A stretch of 64,000 bases of DNA from Alloprevotella sp. (GTDB taxonomy: Bacteria > Bacteroidota > Bacteroidia > Bacteroidales > Bacteroidaceae): NCBI GenBank assembly GCA_017476545.1, contig JAFUZP010000029.1:32862-96861 (forward strand), read 5' to 3'. Made by a program: the position numbers and the translations under genes. Shown here piece after piece: positions 13,041 to 64,000 of this stretch (its first letter is position 1; each line of letters begins with the position of its first letter). The notes under the pieces are model-generated. The model was not told the DNA's origin, did no database searches, and worked only from the letters and a program-made list of their open reading frames with translations.

Positions 13041-13724
13041 TTAGCCTGCGGCAAGGAGCCTTCCGATGTCCTCCGCCAGTGCTTGCATGGAGGGGTAGAG
13101 GCGGTTCGCTCCGGCCCGGATCAGCGCGCTGTCCGGCAGCGGGCCCGTATTGACGGCTATAGTATGGAAACCTGCCGCGCGGGCGGCCTGCACACCGAGT
13201 GGGGCGTTCTCCACAACGATGGCCTCCTCCGCCCGTATTCCGGCACGGCTTAGGCCGAGCAGGTAGGGGTCGGGGTAGGGCTTTCCGCGCTGGCAGTCGC
13301 GGCTGGATACGATGAGCTCGGGACGGAAGTAGCCGCTGTATTGGCGTTCGAGGCGGGCAAGCAGGCTCTCCTGTCCGCTGCCCGTGACGACGGCGATGGT
13401 GAGGCCTGCACGGCGTACTTCCTCTAGCACGGCTTCCGCACCGGGCATCTTGGGCGCTTCGGGCCACTGGTTGAACAGCCGGCACTTCTCGGCATAGATG
13501 TCCTCAACCTCGCGGGGCGTGACGTGGCGGCCCCACTGAGCGGTGGTGAAGAGGTCAATGGTGGATGCTGCAGTACGTCCCTCGTTCATGTAGGTGTCCT
13601 GCTCGCAGGCGTCAAGGCCGAACTTGCGGCAGGCTTCAACCCAGCACTTGGCGTGCGCCGGCATGGAGTCGAACAGCACACCGTCCATATCAAAGAGAAC
13701 GGCTCTTACGGGCATATCGCTCAT
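13041..13724 (-). CDS. HAD-superfamily hydrolase (beta-phosphoglucomutase/phosphatase-like)
   Basis: A 227-residue subfamily IA HAD protein. Motif I is [10 protein letters not shown] with nucleophile Asp12 and acid/base Asp14; motif II is VVTGSG; motif III/IV is [12 protein letters not shown] ... [17 protein letters not shown] helical cap domain occupies residues ~16-90. Members act on small phosphorylated sugars. The gene overlaps pgi by 4 bp at its start, so a role in hexose-phosphate metabolism is a fair inference, but the substrate is unknown. Confidence 0.8.
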
Positions 13725-15052
13725 CCGAGGCGTTCGCGGATAGCGCGGCTCTCAGCTTCGTAGCCGGGCTTATCAAGCAGGGCGAACATATTCTTCTTGT
13801 AACTCTCCACGCCGGGCTGGTTGAAAGGGTTTACGCCAAGTACGTTGCCACTGATGCCGCAACCAAGTTCGAAGAAGTAGAGAAGCTGTCCGATGTAGTA
13901 TTCCGTCAGGCGCGGCAGTACGATGCGCAGATTGGGGACGCCGCCATCCACGTGGGCAAGCTGCGTACCGAGTTCCGCCATTTTGTTCACTTCGTCCACA
14001 CGCTTTCCTGCGAGGAAGTTCAGGCCGTCGAGGTTCTCCTCATCGCCCGGCACGCGGACTTCTCTCTCGGGTTCGGCAACGCTGATGACGGTCTCGAAGA
14101 TGCTGCGCTCACCGTCCTGGATCCATTGCCCCATGGAGTGGAGGTCGGTCGTGAGGTCCACGCTTGCGGGGAAGATACCCAACTTGTCCTTACCCTCGCT
14201 TTCGCCGTAGAGCTGCTTCCACCATTCGGCGATGTAGTGGAGCTTCGGTTGGAAGTTTGCAAGGATTTCTATTTTCTTGCCGTCGCGATAGAGCAGGTTG
14301 CGCATGGCAGCGTACTGATGGACAGGGTTCTCGGCATAAGGAGCCGTCCGGGCCAGCGTTTCCATGTCCTGCGCTCCCTTGACGAGTGCTTCGATATCCA
14401 TCCCGGCACAAGCAATGGGGAGCAAGCCTACTGGCGTGAGCACGCTGAAGCGTCCGCCGACGTTGTCGGGGATGACGTAGCTCTTGTAGCCCTCTTTGTC
14501 GGCCGTAGTGCGTGCGGCACCCTTCACAGCATCTGTTATGGCCACGATACGCTTACGGGCTGCTTCGCGTCCGAGTTGCTTTTCCAACTGTGCGCGTAGC
14601 AGACGGAAGGCCAGTGCCGTTTCCGTTGTCGTGCCGCTCTTTGATATATTGATGATGCCGAAACGCTTGCCGCTTAGGTACTCTTGCAGTTCGGCCAGAT
14701 AGTCTTCGCTGATGTTGTTGCCGGCGAAAAGGATGCGGGGGGTGAGTTCTTCGAACTGGTTCTTTAGCGCTTCGATAACCGCGCGGGCCCCAAGATAGGA
14801 ACCGCCGATGCCAGCTACGACAATGACATCGCAGCTCTCGCGGAGTTGGCGGGCAGTGCCTTGTAAATCGGTAAGGATTTCGGGCGTGATACTGGCGGGG
14901 AGGTGAAGCCATCCGAGGAAATCGCTGCCGGGGCTTGTGCCGTCTTCAAGGGCCTGGTGGGCGGCTTTCACTTCGTTTTTGATACTTGCTACTGCGCCTT
15001 GGGGGAGGAATTGCGCAGCCTTCTGGGAGTCGATGGTGATAGTGGTCTGCAT
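13721..15052 (-). CDS. pgi: Glucose-6-phosphate isomerase
   Basis: Interconverts glucose 6-phosphate and fructose 6-phosphate in glycolysis. At 443 residues it is the short bacterial form. Two SIS sugar-phosphate-binding regions are visible: [13 protein letters not shown] near residue 80 and [16 protein letters not shown] near residue 135. It is translationally coupled (4-bp overlap) to the downstream HAD phosphatase. Codons around residues 218-228 ([10 protein letters not shown]) contain the exact target of CRISPR spacer 9. A TAACTTCG box lies upstream at 15081-15088. Confidence 0.95.
14371..14400 (-). other. Protospacer in pgi, 30/30 match to CRISPR spacer 9
   Basis: The reverse strand of 14371-14400 is identical over all 30 bases to the spacer at 53554-53583. 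The protospacer strand is the pgi coding strand. On that strand the sequence 3' of the match, where a Cas9 PAM would lie, is AGGACATGGA. Confidence 0.95.
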
Positions 15053-51401: not shown

Positions 51402-52298
51402 ATGGAAATTCTTGACGGAAAGAAGACGGCGGCCGACATCCGCCAAGAGATTGCAGCCGAAGTGGAACGCATGGTGCAGGCCGGACAGAAACGTCCGCAC
51501 CTCGCAGCGATACTCGTGGGACACGACGGTGGCAGCGAAACCTACGTCGCCAACAAAGTGAAAGCCTGTGAGGCCTGCGGGTTTCAAAGCACGCTCCTCC
51601 GCTTCGAAGATACCATCACGGAGGACGAACTCCTTGCCGAGGTACGCCGCCTCAACGATGATCCCGGCATAGACGGCTTCATCGTACAGCTCCCCCTGCC
51701 GCGCCATATATCCGAGCAGCGGGTCATAGAGACAATTGACTACCGCAAGGACGTGGACGGCTTCCATCCCATCAACGCCGGCCGCCTCTTCGCCGGACTT
51801 CCCTGCTACATCTCCGCCACGCCCAAGGGCATCTTGGAACTCCTGCGCCGCCACGGCGTGGAGACGGCGGGCCGCCGTGTCGTCATCCTCGGGCGTTCCA
51901 ATATTGTAGGCAAACCCCTCGCCGGACTCATGATGCAGCGTGCATACGGCGATGCTACTGTCACCGTGTGCCACAGCCGCACCCGGAACCTTGCCGAGGA
52001 ATGCCGCCGCGCAGACATCCTCGTGGCCGCTATCGGCCAACCCGGTTTTGTTACGGCCGACATGGTGCGTCCGGGTGTCACCGTAGTAGATGTCGGCACG
52101 ACCCGCGTGCCCGATGCCTCACGTCCCCGGGGCTTCCGCCTTAGCGGGGATGTCCGCTTTGACGAAGTGGCTCCCTTGTGCGCGCACATCACGCCCGTTC
52201 CCGGCGGCGTAGGCCCCATGACCATCGCAATGCTCATGCAGAACACCCTTGCCGCAGCGCGGGGTGACATCTATCCCCGCATTACCGCCGCAGACTGA
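51402..52298 (+). CDS. folD: Methylenetetrahydrofolate dehydrogenase / cyclohydrolase
   Basis: Bifunctional enzyme of one-carbon metabolism. 298 residues. Signatures are [21 protein letters not shown] with the catalytic Lys, [43 protein letters not shown] and [18 protein letters not shown]. It may be co-transcribed with ffh. Confidence 0.97.
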
Positions 52299-52342
52299 CA
52301 ACTGTTCGGCACCCATCGCGTCCGCATCTACAGGCTTGCGTA

Positions 52343-52408
52343 TATGGCTATCCGGAGGACCATTACGACTCCTACACCATTGACGAGATAAATGAACGTT
52401 TTCGTTAA
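52343..52408 (+). other. Possible remnant of a gene 3' end
   Basis: A frame ending at TAA 52406-52408 encodes YGYPEDHYDSYTIDEINERFR, which reads like the C-terminus of a real protein, but no start or body is present in the 44 bp before it. It may be what is left of a gene between folD and the DUF1294 gene. Confidence 0.25.
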
Positions 52409-52472
52409 GCCAGTTGAACAGGAGCTTACTTTATGTCATGGCGAGAAAACGCCTGATGTTAATCGAACCCAG

Positions 52473-52760
52473 ATGCCCTTGCCCGTTGACATTCCGCAGT
52501 TCGCGCTCTGCGCCTACCTCCTCCTCGCAAACCTCGCCGCCTTCATCGCCTACGGCGTGGACAAGCACCGCGCCCGCCGCCACGCATGGCGCATACCCGA
52601 AGCCACACTCCTCGGCCTTGCCGCCATAGGTGGCAGCCTCGGCGCCTGGCTCGGCATGAAAACCTTCTACCACAAAACCCTCCACTGGAAGTTCCGCATC
52701 GTCGTCCCCCTTCTCCTCTTCCTGCACGCGGTGCTGCTGTATTATATATCTGGGCTGTAA
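52473..52760 (+). CDS. DUF1294 small membrane protein
   Basis: 95 residues when started at ATG 52473, matching the compact DUF1294 family. It has VDKHRARRHAWRIPEATLLGLAAIGGSLGAWLGMKTFYHKT, in pieces the family hallmark (DK.A, RI.E..L, GG..GA..GM....HKT), and three hydrophobic helices. An earlier ATG at 52392 would add 27 unrelated residues. Function unknown. Confidence 0.8.
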   Translation: MPLPVDIPQFALCAYLLLANLAAFIAYGVDKHRARRHAWRIPEATLLGLAAIGGSLGAWLGMKTFYHKTLHWKFRIVVPLLLFLHAVLLYYISGL

Positions 52761-52782
52761 GTGCATAATCTCCCCGTGTGGC

Positions 52783-52847
52783 CCTCTACCAGGTTGCATA
52801 AAATACGTGTGTACGGAGCGGAAATTGCGCAGACGGCGTTATCTTTG
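52783..52847. repeat. Left copy of the 65-bp direct repeat that brackets the CRISPR-Cas locus
   Basis: 52783-52847 matches 60223-60287 at 59 of 65 positions without gaps; the copies are exactly 7440 bp apart. Both start at CCTCTACCAG and end at a -7 box TATCTTTG. Beyond the box the copies differ: the left one continues as a degenerate CRISPR repeat, the right one leads to the lipocalin gene. Confidence 0.9.
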
Positions 52848-52862
52848 TACTATGGAAACAGC
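52817..52862 (+). CRISPR. Degenerate terminal CRISPR repeat with a 30-bp spacer-like tail
   Basis: Aligned on the TATCTTTG core, 52817-52862 matches the array repeat at 29 of 47 positions, with one deletion. The 3' half (TATCTTTGTACTAT then GGAAACAGC) is close to the repeat, the 5' half belongs to the flanking 65-bp repeat. The interval to the first perfect repeat, 52863-52892, is exactly 30 bp, the standard spacer length. It may mark the trailer end. Confidence 0.6.
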
Positions 52863-52892
52863 GAACCTCACCGTGGGAGGCAGCCTTGACCT

Positions 52893-54707
52893 GTTGTGAA
52901 TTGCTTACAAATTAGTATCTTTGCACTATAAGAAACATCACCAATACTGAGAAGGACGAACGCTCGTAAGTTGTGAATTGCTTACAAATTAGTATCTTTG
53001 CACTATAAGAAACATCCAATCTGCGCGGCACTACCATCGCTAGCGAGTTGTGAATTGCTTACAAATTAGTATCTTTGCACTATAAGAAACATCTCAGCAG
53101 CGCGAGCTTGTCCTCATCTGACAGTTGTGAATTGCTTACAAATTAGTATCTTTGCACTATAAGAAACATCATGCTGGAGTTTGATAACTTTTAATTGTTT
53201 GTTGTGAATTGCTTACAAATTAGTATCTTTGCACTATAAGAAACATCCTTTCTCATATTCTCAGTCAACATATAAGGTTGTGAATTGCTTACAAATTAGT
53301 ATCTTTGCACTATAAGAAACATCCCTCTGGGCGTGAACCTAAAGCACCAGGAGGTTGTGAATTGCTTACAAATTAGTATCTTTGCACTATAAGAAACATC
53401 CGCAGGACGTCCAGTGTCTTCACGCGAGCGGTTGTGAATTGCTTACAAATTAGTATCTTTGCACTATAAGAAACATCCATGTTGCAAATATGCTTCCAGT
53501 TGCGCAGTTGTGAATTGCTTACAAATTAGTATCTTTGCACTATAAGAAACATCTGGATATCGAAGCACTCGTCAAGGGAGCGCGTTGTGAATTGCTTACA
53601 AATTAGTATCTTTGCACTATAAGAAACATCGTAGACACGCCTCACACTTACGGCATGGGAGTTGTGAATTGCTTACAAATTAGTATCTTTGCACTATAAG
53701 AAACATCGTATTACGGGGTAAAATTTGCCAAAAGTTTGTTGTGAATTGCTTACAAATTAGTATCTTTGCACTATAAGAAACATCCCGCCGTCTGCGGGGA
53801 GCGTCAGCACTTCGGGTTGTGAATTGCTTACAAATTAGTATCTTTGCACTATAAGAAACATCAACCGCGAAACCGCTTACAGCGATTTTGCAGTTGTGAA
53901 TTGCTTACAAATTAGTATCTTTGCACTATAAGAAACATCGGCCAGCAATAATTACACCACCGACTGTTAGTTGTGAATTGCTTACAAATTAGTATCTTTG
54001 CACTATAAGAAACATCTGTGCTGACATTCGAGGCTGAGGAAACATTGTTGTGAATTGCTTACAAATTAGTATCTTTGCACTATAAGAAACATCTGTTAGT
54101 GTCGTTTGAATAACATAACTAAGTTGTGAATTGCTTACAAATTAGTATCTTTGCACTATAAGAAACATCGACCCCGAAGCCGTGATGCAGCTTTTGGCAG
54201 TTGTGAATTGCTTACAAATTAGTATCTTTGCACTATAAGAAACATCAAAACCCCAACAGCCCCGCACAGATAAAAGGTTGTGAATTGCTTACAAATTAGT
54301 ATCTTTGCACTATAAGAAACATCTGAGCCTACGCCCATCGGGTCGGGCAAAGCGTTGTGAATTGCTTACAAATTAGTATCTTTGCACTATAAGAAACATC
54401 ACTACGAAAGTCAGTAACGACACGGTAGCGTTGTGAATTGCTTACAAATTAGTATCTTTGCACTATAAGAAACATCGAAAAGTGAAGACCATATATCCGT
54501 GCGGTCGTTGTGAATTGCTTACAAATTAGTATCTTTGCACTATAAGAAACATCCGGGCGCGGAACTGAAATCCAGGTCGGCGGGTTGTGAATTGCTTACA
54601 AATTAGTATCTTTGCACTATAAGAAACATCAAAGGATTTTGATGGGTATAAGCATACCTAGTTGTGAATTGCTTACAAATTAGTATCTTTGCACTATAAG
54701 AAACATC
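52893..54707 (+). CRISPR. Type II-C CRISPR array, 24 repeats and 23 spacers
   Basis: Twenty-four 47-bp repeats, apparently all identical, starting GTTGTGAATTGC and ending GAAACATC, at 52893, 52970, 53047, 53124, 53201 and so on to 54661. Spacers are 30 bp except four of 29 bp (5, 8, 16, 20) and one of 31 bp (12). The tracrRNA anti-repeat shows that the forward strand is the crRNA strand, so the array runs towards cas2 and is convergent with the cas operon. Each repeat contains TTG (repeat positions 2-4), a 19-bp spacer and TATCTTTG (24-31). Spacer 9 (53554-53583) matches pgi exactly. The other spacers show no match in this window that I could find by eye. Confidence 0.98.
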
Positions 54708-54845
54708 TCGTTATCGGTAATGTATTGCATGATAGCGATTTGGGTGCAAAATTAGAAAAGAAAAAAGGCGTTTGTTTCTTATCAAGTTTGGCGGGTCGGA
54801 TCCAGTTCTGGCTCGCCTAACTTTTGCTGCGCATAGAATTCGGAA

Positions 54846-54955
54846 AAGGTGTGCGCTTATCTCTGTTTGAGGTAAGCGCACACCTCAACTCAAGATGTCC
54901 GTATATCTCAGCCTGAGGTGTGCGCACATCTCAGACGAGGATGTGCGCACTACTG
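54846..54955. repeat. Phased palindrome array E (5 x 18 bp, 23-bp period)
   Basis: Units start at 54846, 54869, 54892, 54915 and 54938, exactly 23 bp apart; the best is GAGGTGTGCGCACATCTC (54915). Linkers of 5 bp are unrelated. Unit 3 (AAGATGTCCGTATATCTC) is the most divergent. It lies in the 287-bp gap between the CRISPR array and cas2. The rest of the gap is AT-rich next to the array (54745-54775), as a leader often is, and has no gene. Confidence 0.85.
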
Positions 54956-54994
54956 GTTAATGACGTTCAGGGGGCGGATGAAAACGCTTCCCTG

Positions 54995-55327
54995 CTAGAA
55001 TAATTCAAGTTGTTGACCAGCCGCGCGCGGCGGTTGGGCTTTTTGACCGTAAAAAAGTTGGATATTCTCAAATTGCTTGTCTGTAATAGTGAGAATTCCA
55101 ATCTTTCCGTATTCCGGCATCAAAGCTTTAACGCGGCGCACGTGGACAGCCGCATTCTCACTACTGGCACAATGACGCACATAGATGGAAAACTGAAACA
55201 TCGTGAAGCCGTCGCCCATAATATCCTTGCGAAAGCGGGCAGCATCCTTTCGCTCTTTCTTTGTTCCAGTTGGGAGGTCGAAGAATACGAGTACCCACAT
55301 AATCCTGTATTCGCTGAAACGTTCCAT
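54995..55327 (-). CDS. cas2: CRISPR-associated endonuclease Cas2
   Basis: 110 residues from ATG 55327, 4 bp after the cas1 stop. The ferredoxin-like fold starts IMWVLVFFDLPTGTKKERKDAARFRK, with the conserved Asp at the end of strand 1, and FQFSIYVRHC forms the second strand. Cas2 dimers hold two Cas1 dimers in the spacer-integration complex. Last gene of the reverse-strand cas9-cas1-cas2 operon. Confidence 0.95.
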   Translation of the reverse strand: MERFSEYRIMWVLVFFDLPTGTKKERKDAARFRKDIMGDGFTMFQFSIYVRHCASSENAAVHVRRVKALMPEYGKIGILTITDKQFENIQLFYGQKAQPPRAAGQQLELF

Positions 55328-55331
55328 ACCG

Positions 55332-56267
55332 TCAGTCCATTTCGGGATAACTGATTTTGCGCAGTTCCCCACTAAAGCACTTCGCCAGCGAAGCCGTCGT
55401 TGTGGTGGCAGCTACCATCAGCGGACTACGCTGACCGCCTATGGTCACATCGAGCGTAGGGATGCTGAGCAGGCGGGCTTTGAGGTCGCGCGTCAGCAGA
55501 CTATAGTCCTCCGTGCGGACGATGTCCAGCACAAGTTCGTCCACATAAGGGCGGTACGGTTCCATGATGTCGTCGGCAAGGCAATAGGCGTTGTATCGGT
55601 TGTGGTGGTGGATGCCCAAGGTGGGGAGCAAGCCGCTGGAGACAAGTGCACGGGCTATGACGGCGCGAAGAATGGCGTAGCCATAGTTCAGCAAGTTGTT
55701 GGGAGGTGCTTCCTCGCGACCACGTATGAAATCCGCCACTTCACGCGCAAAGAGGTTCTTCCAATAATAGGCCGCGGCGCGGGCCTCAAGATTGTCAGCA
55801 TCACCGCTGCGCACGTCCTCCACCCATTTCCTCATGCAACCTGTTTCAGCATCGGTATGCTTACGGAGCACCGCCTCCTGATTGGCAATCTTTTGGCGGA
55901 TGGTCTGCTGCCACAGTTGTTTGCGGAGAGGGAGCGAGGCTTCTATCTGCTGTGTGAAGCGTTCGCGCTGCGTGTTGTGCCCTTCAAGAGGCAGAAGCAG
56001 GCCTACGGGCATACTGCGCTGGTCGCAAGTAATGACGGCACAGTTGTTCTCCAACAAAGCCTCCAACAGCCCGTGGGTGATGGTAAGCCGTTTGTTATCG
56101 AGGATAACCACGCCGATGTCCTCAACCGGTATGGTGCGGACGGTCTCTGCCTTAAAAGCCTCAGAGAGATTCTCGCAGTTTTCCACTTCCGGCATCTTCC
56201 ACACCAACTGCCCGTTGCGCAGAGAGAGGTAGGCTGGCGTACTGAAATAGAGTGTTCGTTTAATCAT
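55332..56267 (-). CDS. cas1: CRISPR-associated endonuclease Cas1
   Basis: The spacer integrase. 311 residues; overlaps the cas9 stop by 8 bp. Motifs include ISYPEMD at the end and, in the catalytic domain, NNLLNYGYAILRAVIARALVSSGLLPTLGIHH with the metal-binding His, ARAAAYYWKNLF (Glu upstream) and ADDIMEPYRPYVDELV (Asp). The sequence is of the type II Cas1 group. Confidence 0.97.
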   Translation of the reverse strand: MIKRTLYFSTPAYLSLRNGQLVWKMPEVENCENLSEAFKAETVRTIPVEDIGVVILDNKRLTITHGLLEALLENNCAVITCDQRSMPVGLLLPLEGHNTQRERFTQQIEASLPLRKQLWQQTIRQKIANQEAVLRKHTDAETGCMRKWVEDVRSGDADNLEARAAAYYWKNLFAREVADFIRGREEAPPNNLLNYGYAILRAVIARALVSSGLLPTLGIHHHNRYNAYCLADDIMEPYRPYVDELVLDIVRTEDYSLLTRDLKARLLSIPTLDVTIGGQRSPLMVAATTTTASLAKCFSGELRKISYPEMD

Positions 56268-59200
56268 TAAAGATTTCGCCCAATATGGTTATCTTAACTT
56301 TGTGAGGATTGAGATTATACAATGAGCTTAAACTTTGGATATTATAAAAACGTTTATCCTTTTTATTCAGTTGTGTAATATCAAATTGACTTTCTGTATG
56401 TCTACGGAATCTATATACTGATGCCGATAGGTTTTGAACAAAATACAGATACTCCCCCAATAGTGCGTAGTTTTTCTCCCGAAGAGCGGAAAGGTATTCT
56501 TCCTCCTCCATTCCTAAGATGAAAGCATCGCCTATTTGCATACTCATCACGAATTCATACTTGTCCTCGGGAAGATGTGTAAGCAAATCTTCTGGCAAAT
56601 TATCCCTATCGACCACTTGCGTCCACACTTCCATCGGATTCTCTATGATAGCAGGTAACCCATATAGTCGTCGCTGCACAGCATGCCAATTAGTACAGAG
56701 ATGTTCTTTGATGCTACCATCGGGGGCTTTATATAAGGCAACGTGGTGGTTTCCTCCTGGTTCCACAAAGGCGATGGGCTCATGTTTTTCGTTATAACGC
56801 AATGGCAGGGCCTTGGTGGAGCGCGTAAACTTCCTCACCGTCTTAATAGGAATGGTCTTAGCGTCATCAAGGTATATAGGATCTTCTTCAAGATTGCGCA
56901 GATTATCAAGAGCTTTCTTTACATCGCTGCGATAGTCTTTACCGGGTTCAAAGCCTCGGTTTAGCCGCTCCAAGATGCGCTTACGGACACCCCCGTCTAC
57001 TATCTTGTCAAGAACGTCCTTGATACCATCTTTCACTTTGATGCTTGGCATACCTGTTTTCCTGTCAATTGTTTGCGTTACACTATAGGTTTCTTTGCCG
57101 TTGAAAAGGCAACCCATTCCTCCCAAGATGCCATACTTGCGAACAATCTCTTTCTGAAATTTTCCGTCACTATTATAGCGGGATATCTGCCCATAGACAA
57201 ATTCATCATGCAAGGAAGTGCGCGGAACAACCAAACCCCGCTGACGTAATATGCGGCGACCTCCCTTGAACTCATATCTCTTCCCTGGAGTCGTAATGTG
57301 TTTTCCGCTACGCTGGGAGATTAGTATTTCACTGACGGCGGCTTTCGCTTCCGAATATGCAATATGTGGTTGAATTGCAATCCATTTTTCCAATAGGGTC
57401 TTCTTCTCATTAAACTTTACATGAGAATCCTCTACTTCCTTGTGCATATCATCCTTTGATGCCCACAAGGTGTTGATACGTTGAATCATGGATTGCGTGG
57501 TAAGCGCAATAGTAAGGGCATCTACGGCATGGTGTCGGTTGTCAAGTCGCTTGTTCCACTCCTTAATGCGCTCAACTTGACGCTCAACTCCGGCACTGGC
57601 ATAGCGGGCAAAGTTCAGATCGTGCAGAATCGTATCATACCCCCACTGGTGGCGCAGAAAATCAGTCACACTCCCACTTGTGGCATATACATTGTGGCAT
57701 ATCTGTCGAAGAATTTCAATGGACTTTCGTGCTATCATCTGGCTTTGCCGCAACTGTCGGTCAATGAAGTCTTCCCAAAGCTTTTTATCATCTTCGGTCT
57801 CTTTGCCCTGTTTCTTTCGTTCAATGTAGTCTCTAAAGGACGCAAGAAGATGATTATATTTTGTGTGGCTAATCTTCTTTGCCTCATACAAATCGTTTAC
57901 ACGTTCTATGAACTCCGCTTCTTTTCCGCAGTCACGCATATAATCAAGCGCCGTACGCTCTTTCTTATCACCATTGCACTTGCTACACGAGCATGTTTGG
58001 TTGGAGAAACTATCATCAAACAATAAAGCCTTTGGTATGATGTGTTCTCTATCTGCATCAACGGCATTCAAAAATTCAGAAAGACCTATACCTTTACCAC
58101 AATAGATACAGCGCCCATCTGTTTCCTCCCACATCCTATATTTCATTATGCGATTCCTTGTAGGAGTTAGTCCATACTCATTACTAATCCTTTTTTTGAT
58201 TTCCTCATTCCTCCTTCTATTCGCATTAATATCCCTGTTGGCTTCCTCGCGTTCGTCCTTGCTTTGTTTCAACTTTCGCGCAAGCTCTACACGAATTTCA
58301 TCGTCATCCTCCAAGGGATATTTCTTCAGAAGCGTATTCACGATGTTTATCATCTGATTAAGAATCTTCTCAACCACCGGCTGCCGCATTTCATTCTTCT
58401 GGATCTGGGGAAGCTGCTTTTTCAAGGGTCTTGCCGCTTCTTGCTCGGATGTGATGCTGTTGGAATGGTTGTATCCTGCCTTCATACAAGCCTCACTATA
58501 CTTATCCCCTTCCATCAAATAAGGCAGAATCTTGCGAATGGCTTTTGTGGACTTGTTTGCATAGCCGGAAGTCTTGAATGAGATACCACATAACGCATCC
58601 AAAACCGCCTCGTCTTTGATGCCAAAACTCTGTAGTTTTATCCTCAAGTCCTGCTCCTCATGAATAGAATAGATAAAATGCCAGAGTCTTTGCAACGGTT
58701 GTTTCTCAAAGTCGCGATTCACAACTGCTCTCATGGAGAGTTCTCCTGTTTCTATGTCCACATATTCTTCCCCTCCAATAGGCATATCAAACTTTAGGTA
58801 GCCTTCTATTTCCTCTTTGCTCAAACTTCCGGAGGCGAGAGCCTCGGCGATTGCTATCCGAGTTTTGTTGCCCTGCAAAGCTTGAATACTATCTGCCTTG
58901 ACAAGCCAATCTCTTGCATTAGTGATACCAAGTATTTCGCGGACTTTAGCTACTTTTATCTTCATATTGCACTGAAGATACTCCACGAGAGACTTTCGCT
59001 GTTCAAGGGTGATGTCGAGATTTTCATTCCTTTTATTCTTAACCGTAAAGTTATTGACGGATTCCCATATCTTGTCTAATTGAGCCAAAGGGGATGATAA
59101 AGGGGCTACCCGAGGGGCTTGCCTTACATCTTTCTCTAATGAAACCAGGAGTTGCTTCTCAAGTTCACATCTACCAACAAGATGCTTGCACGACTTTAAT

Positions 59201-59910
59201 GGCCGCTGGTAATAAATAAAGTTGAAAAAATCATCAACAACTTCATCTGTCAAGACTTTTGGATAGAACGTTTGCTGGGTAGCAAGTATCTTTCGACACT
59301 CTTCTTCATAAGCTGCACGAGGATACACTTTGTCCTTTATCCTGAAAGAGTAACTGGTGCCGTTTTTCTGAATATGCTCGGATTCCTTGAGCTTTTTGGC
59401 AAAGTACTGTCCAATTGTCAATCCCTTGTTTTGAAGTTCAGCATATCGTTTGTTGACCGCTGCCACATACTCTGTCTGTTTGCTGTCTTGCTCATTGTCC
59501 TTACTGTGCTTATAACCACGTTTTTGGTTAAGATGGTATAAAATTCTACCTAACTCGCGCAAAGAGACCTTTTCGGTAACAGCTTTAGCCCTCAACTCCC
59601 ATAGTTTCAAAGGGTTTAATTTAACCAGCGTTTCATCGGGTAGCATATCATACGCCCGCAATCCATCTGTGAGTTGCTCGCGGCGCAACTTGTAACGGTT
59701 GTTGCATTTACGAGCTGTACGTTTTAGCGTACGTTCTTTATTAGTAGGTATTCCTGCTCCCTTACTGAAGGTATCTTCCTCCCCTTCAAGGAGCGGAACA
59801 GTACGGCTACCTATCTTTAATATCCTAACAGGTTCATTATTCTCATCCTTTTCCACTAAAGCCCATCCTATGGAGCCTACACCCAAGTCTAAGCCGAGTA
59901 CTTTTTTCAT
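56260..59910 (-). CDS. cas9: Cas9 RNA-guided nuclease, type II-C
   Basis: 1216 residues. RuvC-I is VLGLDLGVGSIGWALV with catalytic Asp8; an Arg-rich bridge helix follows (RTLKRTARKCNNRYKLRREQ). RuvC-II is EIRVELARKL. The HNH domain has DADREHIIPKALLF with catalytic His623 and is framed by Cys pairs, CIYCGKG and CSCSKCNG, that probably bind zinc. RuvC-III is HHAVDALTIAL with His794 and Asp797. All expected catalytic residues are present, so the enzyme looks active. No csn2 or cas4 is present, which makes the locus II-C. The PAM is not known. The tracrRNA gene begins 100 bp upstream on the other strand. I could not find a clear promoter for the operon. Confidence 0.97.
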   Translation of the reverse strand: MKKVLGLDLGVGSIGWALVEKDENNEPVRILKIGSRTVPLLEGEEDTFSKGAGIPTNKERTLKRTARKCNNRYKLRREQLTDGLRAYDMLPDETLVKLNPLKLWELRAKAVTEKVSLRELGRILYHLNQKRGYKHSKDNEQDSKQTEYVAAVNKRYAELQNKGLTIGQYFAKKLKESEHIQKNGTSYSFRIKDKVYPRAAYEEECRKILATQQTFYPKVLTDEVVDDFFNFIYYQRPLKSCKHLVGRCELEKQLLVSLEKDVRQAPRVAPLSSPLAQLDKIWESVNNFTVKNKRNENLDITLEQRKSLVEYLQCNMKIKVAKVREILGITNARDWLVKADSIQALQGNKTRIAIAEALASGSLSKEEIEGYLKFDMPIGGEEYVDIETGELSMRAVVNRDFEKQPLQRLWHFIYSIHEEQDLRIKLQSFGIKDEAVLDALCGISFKTSGYANKSTKAIRKILPYLMEGDKYSEACMKAGYNHSNSITSEQEAARPLKKQLPQIQKNEMRQPVVEKILNQMINIVNTLLKKYPLEDDDEIRVELARKLKQSKDEREEANRDINANRRRNEEIKKRISNEYGLTPTRNRIMKYRMWEETDGRCIYCGKGIGLSEFLNAVDADREHIIPKALLFDDSFSNQTCSCSKCNGDKKERTALDYMRDCGKEAEFIERVNDLYEAKKISHTKYNHLLASFRDYIERKKQGKETEDDKKLWEDFIDRQLRQSQMIARKSIEILRQICHNVYATSGSVTDFLRHQWGYDTILHDLNFARYASAGVERQVERIKEWNKRLDNRHHAVDALTIALTTQSMIQRINTLWASKDDMHKEVEDSHVKFNEKKTLLEKWIAIQPHIAYSEAKAAVSEILISQRSGKHITTPGKRYEFKGGRRILRQRGLVVPRTSLHDEFVYGQISRYNSDGKFQKEIVRKYGILGGMGCLFNGKETYSVTQTIDRKTGMPSIKVKDGIKDVLDKIVDGGVRKRILERLNRGFEPGKDYRSDVKKALDNLRNLEEDPIYLDDAKTIPIKTVRKFTRSTKALPLRYNEKHEPIAFVEPGGNHHVALYKAPDGSIKEHLCTNWHAVQRRLYGLPAIIENPMEVWTQVVDRDNLPEDLLTHLPEDKYEFVMSMQIGDAFILGMEEEEYLSALREKNYALLGEYLYFVQNLSASVYRFRRHTESQFDITQLNKKDKRFYNIQSLSSLYNLNPHKVKITILGEIFND

Positions 59911-59971
59911 GGCGATTTCGTCTATTTATACATTATTTGGCGGTAAAATTAGTAAATACTTTGCGTTCCGC

Positions 59972-60002
59972 TTGCACAATTAGAAATAAATCATCACTTT
60001 TG
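59972..60002 (+). promoter_or_regulatory. Promoter of the tracrRNA
   Basis: TTG (59972-59974), a 20-bp spacer and CACTTTTG (59995-60002), one base from TAnnTTTG in the first position. The start site would be about 60009-60010, exactly where the anti-repeat begins. Confidence 0.7.
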
Positions 60003-60009
60003 CAGAACT

Positions 60010-60088
60010 ATTTGTAGCAATTCACAATAAGGATTATTCCGTTGTGAAAACATTTAGGTGCCCTCGTCCTTTATCGGGGGCTTTTTTT
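60010..60088 (+). ncRNA. tracrRNA
   Basis: ATTTGTAGCAATTCACAA (60010-60027) pairs with repeat positions 2-12 and 14-20: 18 base pairs with one bulged T in the repeat. A nexus hairpin GGATTATTCC (60031-60040) follows, then a short linker and a terminator stem GCCCTCG/CGGGGGC (60060-60066, 60075-60081) with seven T. Length about 75-80 nt. It is divergent from cas9 and reads in the same direction as the array. Confidence 0.92.
60060..60088 (+). terminator. Terminator of the tracrRNA
   Basis: A 7-bp stem with one G-U pair and an 8-nt loop followed by T7. It also serves as the 3' hairpin of the mature tracrRNA. Confidence 0.9.
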
Positions 60089-60162
60089 GTTTTCGTATGA
60101 GAAGTGAATTATTCCATCCAACCATGACTATATATTAATCCCTCTAAAAGGCTTTTTATGCC

Positions 60163-60179
60163 TAACCGCAGGGCGGTTA
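60163..60179. other. Single 17-bp inverted repeat
   Basis: TAACCGC and GCGGTTA around AGG. It has the TAACC...GGTTA ends of the 22-bp arrays but a longer centre and no neighbours at 22 bp. The rest of 60089-60222 shows nothing recognisable. Confidence 0.4.
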
Positions 60180-60222
60180 CCCTTGCACCGACATGCTCTC
60201 TGCCTGTCGCGAACTTGAGGGT

Positions 60223-60287
60223 CCTCTACCAGATTGCATAAATTACGTGCGTATGGAGCGGAAATTGCGCAAAAGGCGTTATCTTTG
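60223..60287. repeat. Right copy of the 65-bp direct repeat
   Basis: Partner of 52783-52847 (59/65 identical). It ends in TATCTTTG followed by CGGC, a normal Bacteroidetes promoter arrangement, 34 bp upstream of the lipocalin ATG, so here it looks like a working promoter. Confidence 0.85.
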
Positions 60288-60321
60288 CGGCAAATAATGA
60301 CGTAACTTTACATACCGCATC

Positions 60322-60825
60322 ATGAAGAATACGTTTTCCCTGCTCATTGCCCTACTTGGGCTGGTGGCTGCCTGCAACAGGCTGACTGTAAACAATACAC
60401 CGGTGAAAGACCTGGACTTGCAACGTTACCTCGGTACGTGGTATGAGGTGGCGCGCTTCGACCATCGCTTTGAGCGAGGTGTGGAACAGGCGCGTGCAGA
60501 GTATTCTTTGCAGGCGGATGGCAGCATCCGGGTACTGAACAGCGGTGTGAAGGACGGCGAGCCGAGCATAGCGGAGGGTAAGGCAAAACTGACGGAGACG
60601 ACCGCCTTGCTGCGCGTGTCGTTTTTTGGTCCGTTCTATTCCGACTACCGTGTACTGCTTGTGGATAGTGCCTACCAATACGCCCTAGTGGGTAGCGGGG
60701 CGGACGACTATCTTTGGCTGCTTTCGCGTACGCCGCAACTCACAGACAGCGTCCGCGCCGTGCTTCTGAACGAAGCCACGCGTCGGGGCTACGACACGCG
60801 GAAGTTACTTTGGATAAAGCATTAA
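60322..60825 (+). CDS. blc: Lipocalin (Blc-like) lipoprotein
   Basis: 167 residues with lipobox VAAC (Cys18). DLQRYLGTWYEVARFDHRFERG is the lipocalin signature (GxW) and RVSFFGPFYSDYRVLLVDSAYQYALVGS follows the bacterial lipocalin pattern (second motif and the Y.VL region). Bacterial lipocalins bind lysophospholipids or fatty acids at the outer membrane. It is the first gene to the right of the CRISPR-Cas locus and its promoter lies in the right flanking repeat. Confidence 0.9.
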   Translation: MKNTFSLLIALLGLVAACNRLTVNNTPVKDLDLQRYLGTWYEVARFDHRFERGVEQARAEYSLQADGSIRVLNSGVKDGEPSIAEGKAKLTETTALLRVSFFGPFYSDYRVLLVDSAYQYALVGSGADDYLWLLSRTPQLTDSVRAVLLNEATRRGYDTRKLLWIKH

Positions 60826-60855
60826 TGATGAGAACCTGACCGCTGTAACTTCCCA

Positions 60856-61455
60856 ATGACCATTGAAAGCCATCCCCTCCAGCCCTTCCTGCCTTCCAAC
60901 GCCCGCGTGCTGATGCTCGGCAGCTTCCCGCCGCCACGTGCACGCTGGAGCATGGACTTCTTCTACCCCAACTATATCAATGACATGTGGCGTATCATGG
61001 GGCACATCTTCTTCGCCGATCGTCAGCACTTCGTGGATGAAACACACCGCACGTTCCGCCTCAACCTTATCATCCCCTTCCTCGAAGCAAAAGGCATTGC
61101 ACTCTACGACACTGCCACATCCGTGCGCCGCCTTAAGGACAACGCCTCAGACAAATTCCTCGAAACAGCAGAGTCCACCGACATCCACGCACTAACCAAC
61201 CGCCTGCCCCACCTGCAAGCCATAGCCACCACAGGACAAAAAGCCACCGAAACACTCCTAGAAACCCTCCAGTTCCACAGCGGTGCAATAGAGCCACCAG
61301 CCATAGGCAGCTACACACCATTCCAACTCCACAACCGCCCGCTTCGCTTTTACCGCATGCCCAGCACCAGCCGCGCCTACCCCCTCCCTCTCGACAAGAA
61401 AGCCGACCACTACGTCCGCATGTTCCGTGAGCTCGGAATGTTGGAGAGTACGTAA
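60856..61455 (+). CDS. Uracil-DNA-glycosylase-superfamily protein
   Basis: 199 residues. LMLGSFPPPRARWSMDFFYPNYINDMWRIMG has the first active-site motif (LGSFPP) followed by the NDMWR segment, as in family 6-like and related glycosylases; ALYDTATSVRR and ATTGQKA belong to the core; the last motif is MPSTSRAYPLPLDKK. It probably removes a damaged base from DNA. It follows the lipocalin by 30 bp. Which base it removes cannot be told. Confidence 0.7.
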   Translation: MTIESHPLQPFLPSNARVLMLGSFPPPRARWSMDFFYPNYINDMWRIMGHIFFADRQHFVDETHRTFRLNLIIPFLEAKGIALYDTATSVRRLKDNASDKFLETAESTDIHALTNRLPHLQAIATTGQKATETLLETLQFHSGAIEPPAIGSYTPFQLHNRPLRFYRMPSTSRAYPLPLDKKADHYVRMFRELGMLEST

Positions 61456-61631
61456 ATGCTTCCTTACTCCTTTTCACTTCTGAAAATTCAGAAAATATTG
61501 CAACTTTCCGCTGAGTCTTACCACTAAGACTATCTTGATAAAAAACGCAGGGCTACTACCATTTTCCGCGTGAACTCTTCCGCAGATCGAAGATTCAACG
61601 GTCGAAGGGCTGAACATCAGAATTCCAGTTG

Positions 61632-61697
61632 TTTCTTGCCGATATCGGCAAGAAACGGCTATATTTGCAGGCAAAAGTACGTAATTTCTTGCCGATA
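61632..61697 (+). promoter_or_regulatory. Fic gene promoter with palindromic operator and half-site
   Basis: A 24-bp perfect palindrome occupies 61632-61655 (each half TTTCTTGCCGAT) and a second half-site TTTCTTGCCGATA lies at 61685-61697, 7 bp before the ATG. The promoter TTG (61636-61638), 21-bp spacer, TATATTTG (61660-61667) starts inside the palindrome. A repressor bound here would block polymerase. Confidence 0.8.
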
Positions 61698-61704
61698 GGA
61701 CCTT

Positions 61705-62598
61705 ATGGAGTACATTTCTGTCAGTCAGTTTGCCGAGAAGTATGGCGTTTCTGAACGTACCGCGCGCAACTATTGTGCAGCGGGAAAGATTGAGGGGGCG
61801 TTCCTTGTTGGGAAAACATGGAACATCCCTGAAGATGCGGCAGTTCCAGAGCGGAAAAATTCGCGAAAGAGGGCAACCGTACCACTATTAGACATGCTAC
61901 GCGAACAAAAAAGTTTAGGGATGAAAGGCGGCATTTACCACAGGACGCAAATAGACCTGACGTACAACTCCAACCACATTGAGGGAAGTCGCCTGACGCA
62001 CGAGCAGACGCGCTTCATCTTTGAAACGAACACGCTCGGAGTTGGGGAAGAGGCTGTGAACGTGGACGATATCCTGGAAACCGCCAACCATTTCCGTTGC
62101 ATTGACCACATCATAGACACGGCCACTCAGCCTCTCACGGAGCCGTACGTAAAACATCTGCACTCGCTGCTCAAGTCGGGCACGTCCGACAGCCGCCGCT
62201 CATGGTTTGCCGTGGGTGAGTATAAGCGCCTGCCCAATGAAGTAGGCGGCAACGAAACTTGCATTCCCGAGGAAGTGCATAAGGAGATGAAGGCACTTCT
62301 TGCCGACTATAGGGCTATACGTTGCAAGGAGTTGGATGACATCCTTGACTTCCATGTTCGCTTTGAGCGCATCCATCCTTTTCAGGATGGCAATGGTCGT
62401 GTGGGGCGTCTCCTGATGTTCAAGGAATGCCTTGCCGCAGGCATTGTGCCCTTTATTATTACCGACCGCCTCAAAATGTTTTATTATCGTGGCCTTCAGG
62501 AATGGGGACATGCGAACGGCTTTCTTCGCGACACCTGCCTTACGGCGCAGGATGAATACAAAGCCGTGTTGGACTACTTCAGGATTGCGTACCTATAA
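61705..62598 (+). CDS. Fic-family AMP transferase with N-terminal helix-turn-helix
   Basis: 297 residues. Residues ~1-50 (EYISVSQFAEKYGVSERTARNYCAAGKIEGAFLVGKTWNI) form an excisionase/MerR-like DNA-binding domain. The Fic core has HPFQDGNGRVGR with catalytic His224. An inhibitory helix precedes it: SNHIEG gives the (S/T)xxxE(G/N) motif with Glu93, class II, so AMPylation should be self-restrained. Target protein unknown. The HTH together with the palindrome in its own promoter suggests autoregulation. Confidence 0.85.
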   Translation: MEYISVSQFAEKYGVSERTARNYCAAGKIEGAFLVGKTWNIPEDAAVPERKNSRKRATVPLLDMLREQKSLGMKGGIYHRTQIDLTYNSNHIEGSRLTHEQTRFIFETNTLGVGEEAVNVDDILETANHFRCIDHIIDTATQPLTEPYVKHLHSLLKSGTSDSRRSWFAVGEYKRLPNEVGGNETCIPEEVHKEMKALLADYRAIRCKELDDILDFHVRFERIHPFQDGNGRVGRLLMFKECLAAGIVPFIITDRLKMFYYRGLQEWGHANGFLRDTCLTAQDEYKAVLDYFRIAYL

Positions 62599-62702
62599 CA
62601 ATCCTGTTCCCGTTGGATTTGCCTGAACGCCTTATAAAACTCCTCTCAAGCCTTATAACTCCATATCAATCTCTTTGACCACACTATGCTACATCATACC
62701 TT

Positions 62703-63709
62703 TTATTTCCCTCCATTGAAAAAGTCTTTCATCCACAGTAGCGAGAGCAATGCATAATAATTTCGCTTTAATGCTGATACTACAGGGTTGGATTTGCCCA
62801 AGGCTGACAAATACTTAGGATCTATTGATTTCTGTTCAGAGAGCATTTCGTGGAAAGAAGTCTTATCTCTATCCCTACAAGCATAAATCATGGCATCTTG
62901 TGTCAATATTGCTTTCTCACGATAAATCGCGCTCAAATAAGTGTCGCCTTTATCCTTAAAAGAATCAAGCAGACGATTCATCGTCTTTACATAACAAATA
63001 AATCTTTTCTTCTTTTCCGGAAAAGAGGTTTGAGACGATAGCGTTATAGAGGTTGGTCTTGATAATTGGTAGTGATATACGCCTTTATCCACATAAGCGA
63101 TCTTCTGAGCATAATATAAGAGCAATGGGGATACCTGCCAATCTTCTCCGATAGAGAAACTTTCATCGGCTTTTAGATCGTTATCTAAATAAATTGATCT
63201 TTTTATCAGGATTCCACATACAGACTGACAGCCCTTATCTCCAATGCATTCTTTAACTATTTCGTCTTTGGTCTTTGAAATGTCACAATACCTTTGTTGA
63301 ATCGTGTTGTATTGGGTCTCTATCACATGATTCGCCACGACCAAATCTGCGTTAGTAGCAAGTTGTTCAGAAACGAGAGAGGAAATAGCATCTTTCTCAA
63401 TAAAATCGTCTGCATCAACATGAAAGATAAAGTCACCAGAAGCAAGTTGAATCGCCAAATTTCTTGCCGCTGGAAGTCCCTTGTTCACAGGAAGGTCACA
63501 ATTCTTGTCCGTTCTATACGATGGGGGTAATGCTCCAGGCACTTCTGTATTTCTCCTACGCTATTATCACAAGTGCAATCATTAATGAATAGAAACTCCA
63601 GGTCTTCATAGTCCTGAGAAAATAAAGAATCTGCACATTTTCCAACATACTCTTCAACGCCATAAACAGGGACCGCTATTGTAACTTTTGGTGCTTGGTT
63701 TTTGCTCAT
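62703..63709 (-). pseudogene. GT2 glycosyltransferase with a frameshift
   Basis: The reading frame starts at ATG 63709 (VTIAVPVYGVEEYVGKCADSLFSQ) and stops at 63485 after RTRIVTFL. The rest continues in the next frame from PVNKGLPAARNLAIQLASGDFIFHVDADDF to a stop at 62703. Joined at VTF/PVNKG the two parts give a normal ~335-residue family 2 transferase with the DXD in DADD. Loss of one C from a CCC run near 63490 would explain it. AT-rich compared with the core genes, so probably acquired, and now decayed or subject to slippage. Confidence 0.8.
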
Positions 63710-63797
63710 AGTGTTATTTTTTCAAATGATAAGTTGCTCCCTTTCATGTTCGTCTTGCAATTAACCCGCAGCAAAGGTAGTTATTATTTTGGAATGT

Positions 63798-64000
63798 GAT
63801 TATATGTAAATAGCTTTTTGCAAAAGAAGCACCTATAAACTATGGTTGTCTATTGCTTTATATTGGTGTCCGCTAAAACTTTTTATTTCCATAGAAACGG
63901 CTTTCAATCGCTGATTATATGCGATATCGAGTTGTCTTTTTCAAAAGTAAGCCCCTAATCACTTATTATTCTGCAAATTCCATCGGCTGTCCGCTAAAAC
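63798..64000. repeat. Degenerate ~120-bp tandem repeat at the right edge
   Basis: GATTATATG (63798, 63914), CAAAAG..AAGC.CCTA (63821, 63943) and TGTCCGCTAAAAC (63867, 63988) recur in the same order 116-122 bp apart. The second copy runs to the window edge. No gene is seen from 63710 to the end. It may be the border of a mobile element outside the window. Confidence 0.55.

Follow-up and report, generated by a model that had tools for sequence, protein, structure and literature searches.

A CRISPR spacer identical to part of the cell's own pgi gene, with a candidate PAM one base out of place at the target

The window, by which we mean the whole stretch of 64,000 nucleotides of Alloprevotella sp. 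DNA analysed here, carries a CRISPR array together with cas genes and a probable tracrRNA gene. The features of this locus are as follows.

52840..52862, plus strand: degenerate half-repeat at the old (trailer) end
52863-52892, plus strand: candidate oldest spacer (spacer 0), 30 nt, adjoining the half-repeat
52893..54707, plus strand: CRISPR array (Rfam CRISPR-DR49) in which 23 spacers, each 29-31 nt long, alternate with 24 identical repeats of 47 bp
54708..54760, plus strand: A/T-rich stretch resembling a leader, on the side of the array nearest to cas2, the expected entry of new spacers
54995..55372, minus strand: cas2 (TIGR01573)
55332..56267, minus strand: cas1 of type II (TIGR03639)
56260..59910, minus strand: cas9, 1216 aa, with nuclease motifs D8, E542, H623, H794 and D797
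60016..60087, plus strand: probable tracrRNA, with the anti-repeat at 60016-60028 followed by hairpins and a U-run

The cas genes form an operon, cas9-cas1-cas2, in which the ends of the genes overlap and after which the array follows; the next gene upstream is lipocalin-like and lies on the opposite strand. The operon holds neither csn2 nor cas4 and therefore falls into type II-C. Cas9 aligns with the profile TIGR01865 over residues 4-1212, close to its full length. The original prediction that its catalytic residues are present was borne out at the level of motifs, the five listed residues being those that we take to be catalytic. The anti-repeat of the probable tracrRNA pairs with nucleotides 1-13 of the repeat through 12 Watson-Crick pairs and one G-U pair; a stable fold is predicted for 60000-60087 (z -3.9). 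Judged by sequence, Cas9, tracrRNA and repeats all look intact. The pairing of the putative anti-repeat fixes the predicted orientation of the crRNA, which would be read from the plus strand with the spacer 5' of the repeat and the PAM at the 3' side.

The cas region (52000-64000) has a GC content of 0.44-0.47, as against 0.55-0.61 elsewhere in the window. The nearest Cas9 proteins come from another genus of the family (71-74% identity), and the matches within the own genus (8 of 58 genomes, this one included) reach just 33-42% over the matched stretches. The region was likely gained sideways. A search with Cas9 of a collection of genome contigs found no relative. Among 28 other Cas9 proteins listed from the order, 19 match no further than about residue 910-930 (best piece of each), as expected if the C-terminal, PAM-interacting ends have been swapped. 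A direct repeat of 68 bp, 90% identical between its copies, flanks the CRISPR-cas locus on both sides (52780-52847 and 60220-60287), and the draft genome yielded no third copy. It contains a promoter-like stretch (TTGCGCA...TTATCTTTG); the left copy points toward the array.

The polarity of the array was assessed from arrays with related repeats. A degenerate copy of the repeat lies in the left flank in 19 of the 27 testable arrays and in the right flank in 2 of 26, namely L008 and L171, the former being accounted for by the uneven spacing of its last unit. The leader thus appears to lie on the cas2 side, a polarity in support of which an experiment in Riemerella, as described in part of PMC6008519, can also be cited. 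Since the leader appears to be there, spacers 10-23, 14 in number, were presumably acquired after spacer 9, and the earlier view that spacer 9 has long been tolerated holds. Eleven records of Riemerella phages and one labelled as a Shigella phage contain stretches resembling the CRISPR repeat of this system (for example OR089151.1, 29301-29490).

Spacer 9 matches a gene of the same cell. The features of this match are as follows.

53554..53583, plus strand: spacer 9, 30 nt, with the same letters as the pgi coding strand; its crRNA would be read in the plus direction
13721..15052, minus strand: pgi, glucose-6-phosphate isomerase, 443 aa (profile NF010697)
14371..14400, minus strand: protospacer within pgi, codons 218-228, found by sequence match
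14361..14370, minus strand: 3' flank of the protospacer, AGGACATGGA, whose in-register positions 3-7 (14368-14364) read GACAT and hold no PAM
14363..14367, minus strand: ACATG, which fits the PAM core WHATG at a shift of +1, on flank positions 4-8

The original prediction had placed an exact match to spacer 9 at 14400..14371 and had given its 3' flank; sequence comparison confirmed both, with 30 of 30 bases identical and no mismatch. The product of pgi scores 642 bits against NF010697 (cut-off 443), the gene was found once in the draft genome (1.98 Mb in 46 contigs, 80% complete), and the closest relatives of the protein come from rumen Prevotella metagenome genomes (75% amino-acid identity in the best segment). 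A search of the draft genome with the array returned, besides the array itself, the pgi site at E 7.8e-8; four further matches span 17-19 bases and have E 0.9-6. The pgi site is the only self match better than chance among spacers 1-23. Elsewhere in the window, a comparison that tolerated as many as 8 mismatches gave one further match, to spacer 8, itself with 8 mismatches. Spacer 9 is thus a self-targeting spacer, that is, one that matches its own genome outside the arrays. That pgi lies 39 kb from the array carries no weight as evidence, because the original prediction could see only matches inside the window.

To place the source of spacer 9, the orthologous 30-mer was compared in 109 related pgi loci, of which 29 come from the same genus (loci kept from the 50 of 58 genomes with a pgi match, this one counted among the 50 but its locus left out) and 80 are the best of 592 named records, with some species in both collections. 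Every one of them differs from spacer 9 by at least 5 bases, with a median of 11, and spacer 9 therefore appears to derive from the pgi of its own species. The final 22 bases of spacer 9 match no contig of the viral collection exactly. These comparisons bear on two observations named beforehand as capable of overturning the self match, an origin of array and pgi in different organisms and a better match in a phage; neither found support.

Viral protospacers were found for nine of the 23 spacers.

53863..54429, plus strand: spacers 13-20, each with a viral protospacer, exact for 13-17, 19 and 20; the best match of 18 has one mismatch
54554..54583, plus strand: spacer 22, with exact protospacers on 4 viral contigs

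The viral contigs were scanned with six single-spacer patterns, three tolerant at third positions (spacers 13, 10 and 17) and three exact 22-mers (spacers 9, 18 and 22), and relatives of the matched contigs were then added. The scan itself yielded four contigs for spacer 13, one for spacer 17 and four for spacer 22, and no match for spacers 9, 10 and 18. One viral contig of 61.7 kb, IMGVR_UViG_3300020011_000242, is matched by spacers 16-20 (spacer 18 there with two mismatches). A comparison of the array with phage records gave one plausible protospacer, that of spacer 18 (28 of 30 bases) in Bacteroides phage Bacuni_F1 and two of its kin, and a comparison with plasmids gave no match judged real. 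The arrays of four relatives with close Cas9 proteins gave no convincing protospacer in phage records (best E 0.2). A family-wide search with the array was rejected as a source of protospacers: owing to the shared repeat, the matches listed were mostly other arrays.

The flanks of the viral protospacers supply a candidate PAM. The seven bases 3' of the protospacers read GGTAAGG (spacer 13), CATCATG (14), GCTCATG (15), CATTATC (16), GATAATG (17), AGTATTT (18), CGAATAT (19), CAATATG (20) and CAACATG or CATCATG (22), which gives the consensus NNWHATG: A or T at position 3 and never G at position 4 in all nine, A at position 5 in 7, T at position 6 in 7 and G at position 7 in 6 of the 9. One flank per spacer was used; left out were AATAACG for spacer 17 (1 mismatch), CATCATG for spacer 22, many homologues for spacer 18, spacer 4 (6 mismatches) and a spacer from one related array (6 mismatches). 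Against 5000 draws of random flanks from the viral stretches that bear the protospacers, the total information over 12 flank positions is significant both for the nine spacers (p = 0.0008) and for the eight exact ones (p = 0.0012). When each spacer was left out in turn, the scores for spacers 13-20 and 22 were 0.5, 6.3, 2.3, 0.9, 6.7, -1.8, -4.4, 4.1 and 5.2, positive in register for 7 of the 9. For spacer 19, whose viral protospacer is exact, the PAM score improves at +1 (1.7 vs -4.4); for spacer 18 it improves slightly (-0.2 vs -1.8). The array's own repeat begins with GTTGTGA, which has G at position 4 and a non-PAM score of -9.6, as expected from the need to spare the array.

We therefore take NNWHATG as the candidate PAM of the 1216-aa Cas9. 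In Riemerella anatipestifer, the PAM described for a type II-C system in part of PMC6008519 is 5'-GWATTN-3' upstream, or N-A-A-T-W-C on the crRNA strand by our conversion, as compared with NNWHATG here. A rule for type II-C in B. fragilis, C at downstream position 6 (given in part of PMC9367070), was not applied, its Cas9 and the present one being uncompared; the portions covered of a paper on PAMs and repeats (PMC8482600) name no Bacteroidota motif.

At the pgi site, the flank AGGACATGG lacks NNWHATG in register. The in-register flank AGGACATG scores -7.4, below all nine left-out phage spacers (the lowest being -4.4), and 54% of the sites in window positions 1-52700, on both strands, score at least as high. 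If the PAM is NNWHATG, AGGACATG and GTTGTGAA should both be non-functional flanks. Displaced by one base, the same flank reads GGACATG, a perfect PAM, so that spacer 9 has the form of a slipped (+1) spacer, with the canonical PAM one base out of place. GGACATGG at +1 scores 6.4, a value attained by 0.11% of the sites in 1-52700 on both strands; taking the best of the shifts -2, -1, +1 and +2, 0.45% of them reach this value. The original prediction had listed the lack of the right PAM at the target among the ways in which the cell could tolerate spacer 9, and had proposed to derive the PAM from the other spacers and compare it with the pgi flank. That comparison favours the missing PAM. The displaced PAM formed no part of the original prediction and points to the origin of the spacer.

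The flank is conserved among relatives. Among the 109 related pgi loci, one has an in-register PAM by score and 6 by the looser pattern NNWHW, whereas 69 have WHATG at +1; the latter is a common trait of this place in pgi. The codons of the flank specify QDME in 35 loci and ADME in 21, and a Met-Glu ending is found in at least 91 (twelve commonest forms listed). A loss of the PAM by mutation in this lineage was thus not borne out in these 109 loci, and nothing there calls for an escape mutation at the target, because the in-register PAM is almost absent from them and the residues are conserved.

The explanation that we prefer, and think probable though well short of assured, is that spacer 9 is a self-derived memory whose capture slipped by +1, and that the out-of-register PAM prevents or weakens cutting by Cas9. 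Cas1-Cas2 of the type II-C system, probably with Cas9 choosing the PAM, would have captured 30 bases of pgi, either from the cell itself or from pgi DNA of a conspecific entering the cell. The capture would have taken place beside a correct PAM but slipped by one base, leaving the PAM at flank positions 4-8 instead of 3-7. crRNA 9 would be produced like the other crRNAs; for Cas9 sitting at the shifted PAM, guide and target would be offset by one base, and it would either not cut or cut with harmless weakness, and spacer 9 would be carried along as phage spacers were still added at the cas2-side end. The cell would thus survive probably because the PAM sits one base out of place. In this argument the PAM is drawn from the flanks of nine spacers and the slip from one site.

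The slip could instead be illusory. Capture may have been indifferent to the PAM, for example at degraded chromosome ends, with Cas9 now ignoring the pgi site for want of a PAM and WHATG at +1 being a coincidence of conserved codons. That the flank is held by such codons, with the displaced motif in 69 of 109 relatives, speaks for this reading. The chance of a shifted match, about 0.45% over four shifts, cuts both ways: it is small and so counts against coincidence, but it was calculated post hoc. The positive in-register scores of seven of the nine phage spacers indicate that capture attends to the PAM, and on balance we consider a PAM-less capture unlikely.

A +1 slip need not be harmless, since Cas9 of S. 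pyogenes, both in vivo and in vitro, still cuts targets whose PAM is one base off, as described in parts of PMC10415147 and PMC10643121. Spacers 18 and 19 raise the same point from within the array: either +1 slips are frequent and useless, or the phage PAMs have changed, or +1 targets are cut. Protection of the cell by spacers 18 and 19 would mean that Cas9 cuts +1 targets and so ought to cut pgi as well, which speaks against our main reading; spacer 9 should then do harm, and some other brake is required. The pgi site may accordingly be cuttable, with Cas9 or crRNA 9 silent or blocked through low expression, an anti-CRISPR or repression. The S. pyogenes results and the +1 shift of the exactly matching spacer 19 would favour such a brake. 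However, nine spacers that are apparently newer than spacer 9 (13-20 and 22) match viral contigs, eight of them exactly, so adaptation seems to have continued; we regard a silenced or blocked system as rather improbable.

Still less credit is due to an artefact or a foreign origin, in which the array was misassembled from another species or the spacer came from a phage carrying pgi. The A/T-richer cas region lies near a contig end, and the other Cas9 proteins found in the genus are distant relatives, as such an origin might predict. Against it, pgi and the array lie on one contig (96,861 bases, its end being window position 64000), the spacer fits its own pgi exactly and none of the 109 related ones, and its last 22 bases occur in no contig of the viral collection; we think it very unlikely. 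That Cas9 binds pgi without cutting and so tunes the gene seems scarcely credible: an exact match apparently long retained beside a complete-looking system would suit such a role, but the PAM is absent in register, crRNA 9 has the same sense as the pgi mRNA and so cannot pair with it, pairing instead with the template strand, which is the weaker orientation for a block of transcription, pairing over all 30 nt makes cutting more likely than binding without cleavage, and the target sequence is not kept across the 109 related loci.

Several known cases resemble the slipped capture that we propose for spacer 9. In Pectobacterium atrosepticum, spacer 6 of CRISPR2 (type I-F) is a natural self spacer with a 100% match to its own chromosome; its cas genes are active, and it is harmless through a poor, non-functional PAM beside the target (as described in part of PMC3630108). 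There the non-consensus PAM was ascribed to a single-base change, the target lies on a horizontally acquired island, the system is of type I and toxicity was assayed, whereas here a type II-C system faces a core metabolic gene whose flank is conserved among relatives, the PAM lying one base away from its proper place, all of it deduced from DNA sequence. The Campylobacter jejuni strain PT14 of Hooton and Connerton shares with our case the type II-C system and 30-nt spacers from its own chromosomal genes. According to the account in part of PMC4283603, those spacers were seen in read populations, in a phage carrier state and with a phage Cas4-like protein; here there is one such spacer in an assembled array, and the other matched spacers are viral. 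A PAM one base off the end of the protospacer is also known from the NAGG spacers of the S. pyogenes type II-A system and from slipped spacers of type I (part of PMC10415147). Both kinds target phages, and the NAGG spacers retain cutting, whereas the slip proposed here lies on the cell's own chromosome, where survival suggests that no harmful cutting occurs.

Self-targeting spacers are far from rare: the survey of Stern et al. 2010, summarised in part of PMC6990116, put them at 0.4% of spacers and in 18% of its genomes. They are often taken to mean that the system is dead or that an anti-CRISPR is present. Harmless ones are already known; the slip is a new detail, as yet unproven, and searches of the open-licence literature of PubMed Central for slipped-PAM self-targeting, for pgi as a self target and for type II-C PAMs of rumen Prevotella gave no earlier report of this case among the papers listed. 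The present case suggests that an exact self match can be harmless to a cell whose system is complete and goes on adapting, and the array itself supplies the PAM by which this is judged. It also provides a one-base test of how strictly PAM and guide are coupled in a type II-C Cas9. We raise only tentatively, as a notion somewhat easier to doubt than to accept, that slips of one base at capture are what lets memories of the own chromosome persist in nature. Correct PAMs would be recognised on self DNA, and just those captures that are one base off would be inherited, in a Cas9 family that spares out-of-register targets. If so, self-matching spacers should be enriched for +1 shifts, and no escape mutation, anti-CRISPR or loss of Cas9 would be needed.

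The array also ties an uncultured Prevotella-like bacterium to the viral contigs that it has met. On IMGVR_UViG_3300020011_000242, protospacer 17 lies in a DUF2800 / PD-(D/E)XK nuclease gene (L216, 1422-2636); phage Cas4-like proteins have been linked to host-derived spacers in the type II-C system of C. jejuni (part of PMC4283603). On a further viral contig (L213, 2975-5619), protospacer 13 lies in a gene with a weak match to Lcl_C, under the Pfam cut-off, and protospacer 14 in a reverse transcriptase gene. This stretch resembles a diversity-generating retroelement.
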